Assembly: GCA_021730225.1 (NCBI GenBank)
Contig: CP072532.1
Location: forward strand, 703,230 to 767,229
DNA length: 64,000 bases
Source of the DNA: Candidatus Vesicomyidisocius sp. Agig_15_S12
GTDB taxonomy: Bacteria > Pseudomonadota > Gammaproteobacteria > PS1 > Pseudothioglobaceae
Direction of reading: 5' to 3'
Shown: one piece after another, positions 53,144-57,133 of the stretch
How positions within the stretch are numbered: the first letter of the stretch is position 1
Layout of the letters: the number at the start of each line of letters is the position of its first letter
Program-made: the position numbers and the translations under genes
The notes under the pieces: model-generated
Databases searched by the model: none
What the model saw: the letters and a program-made list of their open reading frames with translations, nothing else
What the model was told of the DNA's origin: nothing

Positions 53144-53757
53144 AACGCTTGTAAAATAACTTTAATTTGCTGAGTTGTTTCCTTAAGTGTCTGTGAGGCA
53201 TTAATAAGCTTAATCCGTTCAGGAAATTGCTTAGACCTTTTAATATAGACATCTCTCACACGATTAAAAAAATCATTTGTCTCAAGTTCAATTCTATCCT
53301 TACGACTTCTAGATTTAATCCGTAACATACCTAATGCAACTGGCACATCTAATAATAAAGTTACATCAGGAGAAAAATCTTTCAATACCCATCGTTCCAA
53401 AAATGCAATACGCTTAATACTCAAACCTCTACCACCACCTTGATAAGCATACGAAGCATCCGTAAAACGATCGCTTAATACCCAATCTCCCCTCTTAAGG
53501 GCTGGAATAATTTTAGTCTTAATATGCTCATTTCTAGCAGCAAACATTAATAATAACTCAGTATCATTGTCTATTAACTGGGTATCGACACTTAATAATA
53601 ATGCTCTTATTTTCTCACCCAGTTTAGTACCACCTGGTTCACGTGTTAGAACAACATTGATTTTTTTTTTGGCTAAATAGCTACAAATAAAATCAATTTG
53701 TGTACTCTTTCCAGCACCTTCAACACCATCAATAGTGATAAATTTTCCTCTTTGCAT
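53140..53757 (-). CDS. tmk: thymidylate kinase
   Basis: A 205-residue dTMP kinase. The P-loop is FITIDGVEGAGKSTQ, the DR(Y/H)-type region appears as LSDRFTDASYAYQGGGRG, and the LTREPGGT motif is complete. The ATG at 53757 is chosen because it gives the family N-terminus MQRGKFITIDG; a longer reading from 53841 adds 28 residues encoded across a perfect palindrome and has no homology. The ribosome site before 53757 is weak. It is the first gene of tmk-holB-hemL, preceded by that palindrome and by the remains of mltG. Confidence 0.94.
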   Translation of the reverse strand: MQRGKFITIDGVEGAGKSTQIDFICSYLAKKKINVVLTREPGGTKLGEKIRALLLSVDTQLIDNDTELLLMFAARNEHIKTKIIPALKRGDWVLSDRFTDASYAYQGGGRGLSIKRIAFLERWVLKDFSPDVTLLLDVPVALGMLRIKSRSRKDRIELETNDFFNRVRDVYIKRSKQFPERIKLINASQTLKETTQQIKVILQAL

Positions 53758-53810: not shown

Positions 53811-53955
53811 CTTTTTTAGCAAAAGAAAATAAAGCATACAACTAATTTGCGACCACCGAAAAGATTAACCCATAGTAGTAATCCTTAATTTCTATAAGAA
53901 TTATAAAGGCTATTAAATTTTAAATTAAGTCATTATCTAGACTATCTGCCTTAAC

Positions 53956-54360
53956 TTAAATCATAATTTCTGCCAGAGATTTATTATATTTTAATACTTT
54001 CATATTAATATAGTTCTTAATAAAAACAATAATAGTATTATTCTCAATTAGAATAATACTTCTAATTTCTATTTTCATAGAAATAAAATAATTTAAACAA
54101 TCAACAACATTTATATCCACATTATTATCATAATAACCTGATTTAATTTTTAATTATTATTTGAATAATTTAGCAAGTAATCACATAAAATACTAGAATT
54201 GATACAACCTAAACACTCTAAATTATTTACAATCAAATGAAAACTAATGTCTTGAGATATTTTGCTACATATCTAGATTATTTGTTTTGATACCATTTTC
54301 CAAATACATCCATAATAGTAAAAAAAAAATAGCAATAAATACAAAAATAACCTTCAAATA
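53956..54360 (-). pseudogene. mltG: decayed mltG (endolytic murein transglycosylase)
   Basis: Between pabC and tmk, where many gammaproteobacteria carry mltG (yceG), the minus strand still encodes pieces of its N-terminal half in two frames. The membrane anchor is in the pabC tail (54301-54360, YLKVIFVFIAIFFLLLWMY). After a frameshift, 54150-54248 reads LIVNNLECLGCINSSILCDY, resembling the MltG pattern of L..GvI.S...F..Y. Back in the pabC frame, 53956-54150 reads KIKSGYY then DINVVDCLNYFIS and a later IILIENNTIIVFIKNY, matching lKaGtY, mtv.emL..L.sGk and lVEG.tf.q.l. The catalytic C-terminal domain is gone; only 200 bp remain before tmk. These matches are by eye. Confidence 0.72.
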
Positions 54361-55305: not shown

Positions 55306-56037
55306 ATGAAAAAAACTGTTCAACAGTTTATTAACAATCTAATTGATAGTGCTAAAGATTTAGCTCCTATAATAGGTGTAATTACGTTTTTCCAAATTAT
55401 TGTGCTTCAACAAAGCATACCAAACTTGATGGATATTATTATTGGGACTGGATTTGTTTTATTAGGTTTGACTTTATTTGTATACGGACTAAAACTAGGA
55501 TTATTTCCTATTGGTGAAACATTAGCCTACGGCTTTGTTAAAAAAGGTTCAATTTTTTGGCTACTCTTATTTGCATTTGCCTTAGGATTTGGCACCACAG
55601 TGGCAGAACCTGCCCTCATAGCGATTACTAATGAGGCAGCTAAAGTTGCCAAACTTGGTGGAATTGTCAATACACAAACAGAAATTAATAATTATGCAAC
55701 AACCTTGCGTCTTACTGTAGCTATTTCTGTAGGTTTAGCTGTAGTAATTGGTGTACTCAGAATTTTAAAAGGTTGGCCAATACAATACTTAATTATTAGC
55801 GGTTATCTTCTAGTAATTGCTACTACTTTCTTTGCACCAAACTTTATCATCGGCTTCGCTTATGATTCAGGTGGTGTCACTACAAGCACCATTACGGTAC
55901 CATTACTCACTGCACTTGGTGTAGGTCTTGCTAATTCAATTAAAGGCAGAAATCCTTTAACAGATGGGTTTGGAATGATTGCCATTGCTTCACTTCTACC
56001 TATTATTGCAGTAATGTTATTTGGTATATTACAATGA
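55306..56037 (+). CDS. DUF1538 membrane protein, first of a pair (UmpA-like)
   Basis: A 243-residue inner-membrane protein with about seven spans. It carries the DUF1538 signatures [26 protein letters not shown] and [25 protein letters not shown]. The next gene is a paralogue with the same marks, so the two probably form a heterodimer. As I recall, a DUF1538 pair in a halophile (UmpAB) was described as a two-component sodium(potassium)/proton antiporter; other than this the family is little known. It heads a four-gene operon with P-II-like and CBS proteins, which suggests gated transport. The start ATG has no strong ribosome site. Confidence 0.82.
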
Positions 56038-56774
56038 ATTTAATGGGTAATTTTATTAATATGTTCTGGGATGTTATGCCTATCGCAGTCATATTACTTG
56101 GTTTTCAGATAATTATTCTTAAACAAAAGATACCATATTTAAAGAAGATTATTACAGGATTTGTTTTAGTTTGGATAGGGCTTACTTTATTTATTATTGG
56201 GTTAGAAAAAGCACTATTTCCTCTAGGAAAACTAATGGCACAACAACTAACATCAAGTAATTTTATAGGTAATGGCGTAATTAGCTGGAAAGATTATTAC
56301 TGGATTTATATTTTTGCAGCCAGTATTGGCTTTGCTACAACCATTGCTGAACCAGCTTTACTAGCAATTGCCATTAAAGCCAATCAAGTATCTGGCGGTT
56401 TTATCAAGGTATGGCCCCTAAGAATTGTAGTTGCTATTGGTGTGGCTGTCGGTATTACCATCGGAAGCTTTCGTATTATAACTGGATTACCATTATATTA
56501 CTTTATTATTTCTAGCTATGTTATCGTACTTATACAAACCTACTTTGCACCTAAAAATATTATTGCACTTGCCTATGATTCTGGCGGTGTAACAACATCT
56601 ACCGTAACCGTACCACTGGTTGCAGCTCTTGGACTTGGACTTGCGAGTACAATCGATGGACGCTCTACACTTATTGATGGTTTTGGTTTAATAGCTTTTG
56701 CCTCATTATTTCCTATTATGAGTGTGATGACTTACGTACAAATTATGAAATTTTTAAAACAAAATAAAAAATAG
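56034..56774 (+). CDS. DUF1538 membrane protein, second of a pair (UmpB-like)
   Basis: A 246-residue, about seven-span protein paralogous to the preceding one. Equivalent signatures are [26 protein letters not shown] and [26 protein letters not shown]. It overlaps the first gene by 4 nt (ATGA), so the subunits are made in equal amounts. The two AEPAL and DSGGVTTST motifs recall re-entrant loop motifs of transporters with inverted symmetry; this comparison is mine. Its C-terminus is lysine-rich and cytosolic, and the P-II-like gene follows after 8 nt. Confidence 0.82.
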
Positions 56775-56782
56775 GAGGTACT

Positions 56783-57133
56783 ATGCACTTTAAACTAATT
56801 ATTGCTTTTGTTGATTCTGATAAAACTGACAATATACTTGAGGCAGCTAGAACAAAAGGTGCTACAGGATCAACCATTATTTCTCAAGCTCGAGGAGAAG
56901 GTCTCAAACACAACAAAACATTTTTAGGACTCAATATTGAAACTCCTAGAGATGTCTTATTGTTATTAGTAGAACAACATCTTTCTAGGGATATATTAGA
57001 AACAATTGCTGATACAGGCAATTTTGAATCCAACCCAAAAGAAGGAATTGCTTTTCAAGTTGATGTAGAGGATGCTGTTGGCGTTATGCATCAAATTCAT
57101 GCACTAGAACACACTATAAAGGAAAAAATATAA
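56783..57133 (+). CDS. P-II-like signalling protein
   Basis: A 116-residue ferredoxin-fold protein resembling P-II: KLIIAFVDSDKTDNILEAARTKGATGSTIISQARGEG corresponds to strand 1, helix 1 and strand 2 of P-II (family pattern k.i.ai.....d.v..a....Gatg.Ti...rG.G). The T-loop is short and lacks Tyr51; the C-loop is DVEDAVGV in place of the usual RIRTGE. So it is a divergent sensor, not GlnB/GlnK. AGGAGGT lies 5 nt before the ATG, a strong site. Context places it as the regulator of the DUF1538 pair, as GlnK is for AmtB or SbtB for SbtA; ligand unknown. Confidence 0.8.
   Translation: MHFKLIIAFVDSDKTDNILEAARTKGATGSTIISQARGEGLKHNKTFLGLNIETPRDVLLLLVEQHLSRDILETIADTGNFESNPKEGIAFQVDVEDAVGVMHQIHALEHTIKEKI

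Follow-up and report, generated by a model that had tools for sequence, protein, structure and literature searches.

An mltG pseudogene between pabC and tmk in a vesicomyid clam symbiont, most likely derived from a PabC-MltG fusion

MltG (YceG; PF02618/TIGR00247) associates with PBP1B and RodA in E. coli, where it cuts nascent glycan and its function is apparently not essential (PMC8135044). The symbionts of vesicomyid clams are known for reductive gene loss; excerpts of two reports describe the loss of recA, mutY, uvrB and uvrC (PMC3202245, PMC5310779), and the envelope-gene losses of Vesicomyosocius, which include a 20-ORF region, have led to the suggestion that no wall is made (PMC2642828, PMC7826175). 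Here we describe a copy of mltG in such a symbiont that occupies the same pabC-tmk slot as MltG and in which the N-terminal 150 residues are recognisable, whereas codons 159-262, with the catalytic Glu, are gone and stops and frameshifts have accumulated. As with recA, mutY and the uvr genes, the decay is seen in the same organisms, clade I having remnants with common deletions and clade II decaying independently; it differs in that mltG encodes a wall enzyme, most likely from a fused gene, and is not mentioned in those excerpts (PMC3202245, PMC5310779). It also resembles the envelope losses of Vesicomyosocius, as peptidoglycan functions are eroding in the same clade (PMC2642828, PMC7826175). 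Our literature search returned no report of mltG decay, of a PabC-MltG fusion or of the hairpin discussed below, which is weak evidence given that many journals lie outside its coverage.

The interval between pabC and tmk

The window, a stretch of 64,000 nucleotides, belongs to a complete genome of 1,033,397 bp (1.03 Mb). The minus strand is the coding strand here, and the order is pabC (55200-54265), the interval, tmk and holB. The pabC ORF (311 aa) encodes an aminodeoxychorismate lyase core (PF01063), with the full TIGR03461 domain (pabC_Proteo) matched over residues 6-258 at 223.6 bits against a cut-off of 176.85; about 46 further residues, the old linker and membrane anchor of MltG, make up its C-terminal tail. 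On the other side, the true start of tmk (thymidylate kinase, 53757-53140) is the ATG at 53757, since the MQRGKFITIDG start is conserved in relatives; a longer ORF with a TTG start at 53841 extends into the mltG remnant. Beyond pabC, at 55306-57133, the window also carries a tandem pair of similar membrane proteins (243 and 246 aa) with a common 10-residue motif, and after them a small protein of 116 aa that is P-II-like in appearance.

The interval has a GC content of 20.5%, compared with 29% for pabC, and holds no intact ORF except the tail of pabC. The initial annotation had described 420 bp without an intact ORF; the absence of any ORF beyond the pabC tail is correct, but the distance from the pabC stop to the tmk ATG is 507 bp, and about 420 bp is reached only by counting to the TTG at 53841. 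No Rfam match was found over the region, and the longest open frame of the remnant had no match in Pfam.

As tblastn query we took the last 333 residues of PabC-MltG from a sister clam symbiont (G004), in which the two are fused. MltG residues 1-153 matched window positions 54405-53944 at 48% identity and 102 bits, far above the 24.4 bits of the best of 1000 dinucleotide-preserving shuffles; without the pabC tail, the match still reached 67 bits, where the best of 1000 shuffles gave 25.8. This match, together with the lesions described below, bears out the original proposal that mltG is decaying between pabC and tmk. The slot, first given as 53956-54360, was the right one, but the remnant covers 54405-53758.

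The pieces of this remnant can be followed along the minus strand. The former N-terminal membrane anchor of MltG (54405-54268; KNNHSLSVLLKSKSSYLKVIFVFIAIFFLLLWMYLENGIKTNNLDM) now forms the hydrophobic tail of PabC. This tail aligns in frame with the first 46 MltG residues of the sister fusion, and its maximum 17-residue hydropathy is 2.93. Since the pabC frame continues through the old anchor to its stop at 54265, what had been read as a membrane-anchor piece of MltG is indeed homologous to it but belongs to the pabC ORF. There follows the rest of the N-terminal domain (codons 47-158, 54264-53929), interrupted by in-frame stops at codons 74, 82, 83 and 149. A one-base insertion at codon 46 and a one-base loss at codon 72 shift the INSSIL-type segment by one frame relative to the anchor and the IKSGYY segment, which accounts for the ordered pieces in two frames that were noticed at the outset. 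Compared with the intact gene there is also a 3-base insertion at codon 26, and two further stops, at codons 276 and 290, bring the number of stops to six.

At codon 159, as seen in the DNA alignment and the table of lesions, a 310-bp deletion (junction 53928/53927) has removed codons 159-262. The catalytic-Glu motif LIEKET falls within this deletion at codon 215, a residue that by motif probably corresponds to E. coli E218 (PMC8135044). A functional MltG (TIGR00247), that is, a YceG domain with its catalytic Glu, is thus no longer encoded. The catalytic domain had been thought to have vanished altogether; however, a damaged 3′ end (codons 263-333, 53927-53758) survives, itself shortened by deletions of 26 bp (53834/53833) and 44 bp (53789/53788). 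It reads as NLKFNSLYNSYRN*GL, which tblastn places at about 53926-53879, and ALFSFAKKG. This stub alone scores 24.9 bits, inside the shuffle range (maximum 24.4-25.8); the DNA alignment, read through two siblings (G001 and G006), shows clearly that it is homologous. An intact mltG elsewhere would have told against decay, but PF02618 was not found in the remainder of the complete genome contig, where positive controls matched, and was likewise absent from the other three genomes of its clade (G001, G005 and G006). By its lesions the remnant is a pseudogene, presumably without a functional product.

Decay of mltG across the genus

We compared 12 genomes of the genus, with G000 as the window's own. 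They comprise one intact fusion, two copies that are split but open, one with a single-base frameshift, four that are degraded and four that are dead. As the initial annotation had anticipated, sister symbionts retain an intact MltG in the same slot, fused in G004 and split in G002 and G010. The intact G004 protein combines PF01063 and PF02618, as well as TIGR03461 and TIGR00247, in 601 aa. G002 and G010 have in common a +1 at the fusion point, which leaves PabC with 278 aa and gives MltG an open frame of its own, 340 aa long. This frame has a dN/dS of 0.18, indicating purifying selection, so that MltG is probably still made in these two genomes, perhaps from a TTG start; at both junction loci carrying the one-base insertion (L060 and L062), a TTG overlaps the pabC stop.

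The remaining genomes outside the window clade have a one-base insertion at codon 48 (G007), three stops (G011), a 242-bp 5′ deletion plus one stop (G009), two deletions (G008), or deletions and stops (G003). Because the lesions of G003, G008, G009 and G011 differ, mltG was lost several times, about four to six. A TAA stop at MltG codon 141 is present in both G009 and G011 (L059, L061), which the tree does not group; this common stop may reflect parallel mutation, recombination or tree error.

In the window clade (G000, G001, G005 and G006; support 100/100), mltG is dead in all four genomes. The codon-74 stop (TGA) is common to all of them. G000, G001 and G006 have in common the +1 at codon 46, a TAG at codon 290 and the 26-bp deletion at codon 293, and the 310-bp deletion has identical breakpoints in G000 and G006.

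The G004 arrangement extends well beyond the genus. An MltG domain is part of an open frame about 600 aa long (598-611) in 35 of 83 family genomes, compared with mostly 310-390 aa class-wide, and in each of the eight of these 35 that were directly checked (G004, G014, G016, G020, G021, G023, G049 and G063), PabC is in the same frame. These long frames and the eight checked cases suggest that the ancestral gene of the genus was most likely a PabC-MltG fusion, although the window itself no longer has both domains in one open frame. Given that MltG is a membrane-bound enzyme acting on nascent peptidoglycan, we would expect PabC to have been inside and MltG outside. Fusions of about 600 aa are widespread in the family (L064, L066, L070-L073, L080, L081) and have apparently been re-split in some genera. 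Six long open frames outside the family, in high-GC genomes, were rejected as fusions, with pabC in another frame.

Taken as a whole, we are close to certain that the interval holds an mltG pseudogene, the remains of a PabC-MltG fusion of which the PabC half was kept. We imagine that the ancestor had one gene for a cytoplasmic aminodeoxychorismate lyase, a transmembrane helix and a periplasmic endolytic transglycosylase, and that its MltG half was disabled in the ancestor from which the four window-clade genomes descend. The PabC half would have been under selection throughout and would now end at a chance stop just past the old membrane helix. Erosion of the MltG half would then have followed, with AT-biased substitution, small indels and larger deletions proceeding at a pace that differs per descendant. 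This refines the first reading of the locus, adding what was most likely a fused ancestor, a surviving 3′ end, and a loss that is clade-wide and paralleled in several other clam symbionts.

Possible reuse of the two ends

Is the remnant inert? Its 5′ part might have been kept as an anchor for PabC, or its 3′ part might serve as an RNA hairpin before tmk, in termination, processing or initiation; we regard such retention as improbable. The end of PabC is still hydrophobic in all four window-clade genomes, as expected if the anchor were kept. However, G005 and G006 have a frameshift within the helix of this tail and G001 has a stop that cuts it; the tail also shows about 6 nonsynonymous against 2-4 synonymous differences in 25 codons, compared with a dN/dS of 0.23-0.33 for the PabC core. 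With three of the four tails frameshifted or cut and nonsynonymous changes in excess, the pattern looks relaxed and favours drift.

At the other end, a repeat search found a perfect 36-nt palindrome in the 3′ remnant (53810-53775, minus strand) that ends 18 bp before the tmk ATG; its fold z-scores are -3.9 and -5.4, and no longer perfect inverted repeat was reported in the window. Hairpins or palindromes of the mltG 3′ remnant were also located at L057 (1449-1528) and L055 (1222-1281). The fold z of the 3′ remnant is -5.4 in G000, -5.8 in G006 and -2.5 in G001, and one stem pair, read from the sequences, differs in both of its bases between G006 and G000 (G.U to U-A), all of which would fit a maintained structure. 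Against this, no hairpin was seen in G005 (z +0.9) or in four tested copies outside the clade (z near 0), and templated palindrome correction together with AT drift could build one without selection. The hairpin may be such a by-product or a new element before tmk. That both ends have been reused, with the orphaned MltG helix holding PabC at the membrane and the 3′ remnant acting as a regulatory hairpin ahead of tmk, is a picture to which we give little credence.

The other alternatives fare far worse. Chance similarity in a functional spacer or an unrelated short gene might be suspected in an interval of 79% A+T, as AT-rich DNA yields spurious hydrophobic matches and the smallest stub does no better than shuffles, but the margin of the main match over its shuffles, the collinear order in the correct slot, a DNA alignment that grades from intact to dead copies and the lack of an Rfam match make this extremely unlikely. 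Equally implausible is an intact gene that sequencing or assembly errors have made to look broken: homopolymer-associated indels such as that in the T-run of the anchor are a typical error class, and the one-base frameshift of G007 could be one, but large deletions and many stops recur in four separate genomes with shared breakpoints, and on either side all 12 genomes have open frames for pabC and tmk.

Wall genes and the loss of MltG

Wall genes were identified by genus-wide family searches and named by NCBIfam on G004 representatives. The window clade is without FtsW, FtsI and a PBP1B-like glycosyltransferase domain, and FtsZ was absent in family searches of all 12 genomes. For MltD, G005 has an open frame, G006 a truncated one, G000 a pseudogene and G001 nothing at all. 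All 12 genomes retain an SLT-domain protein of 205 aa. Traces of an FtsW pseudogene and of the MltD-type lytic transglycosylase are found at G000:C1:492136-492582 and G000:C1:235467-235715, respectively. G000, G001 and G005 have open frames for RodA and PBP2, whereas in G006 the two are broken; the Mur ligases persist, with one partial in G006. The breaks in G006, at G006:C1:453014-453625 and G006:C1:758864-759800, affect RodA, its last SEDS protein, and PBP2, the transpeptidase that goes with it, and suggest that wall synthesis is ending in that lineage.

Loss of MltG was probably tolerated because the clade had already dismantled much of its wall-processing machinery, the likeliest reason being slow, low-demand wall synthesis with few synthases. 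Against this, G003 has lost MltG yet keeps all tested partner genes. Two other assignments were discarded: that the lost SEDS protein and transpeptidase were RodA and PBP2, as NCBIfam names identify FtsW and FtsI as lost and RodA and PBP2 as kept, and that MltG is lost where RodA is lost, as most genomes without MltG keep RodA.

The mltG case is one of ordinary reductive genome evolution, with the fusion and the 3′ hairpin its less ordinary features. It offers a natural series in which one gene dies step by step among close obligate symbionts; the stages run from an intact fusion down to almost nothing, and the lesions can be put in order. It also shows that one half of a fusion may be discarded with selection still acting on the other. 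MltG joins the wall functions lost in clade I. Contrary to the published suggestion of no wall (PMC2642828, PMC7826175), three of the four clade genomes still have open frames for RodA, PBP2 and the Mur ligases although FtsW, FtsI and FtsZ are gone; a thin wall may thus persist in these symbionts, a question that can now be tested.
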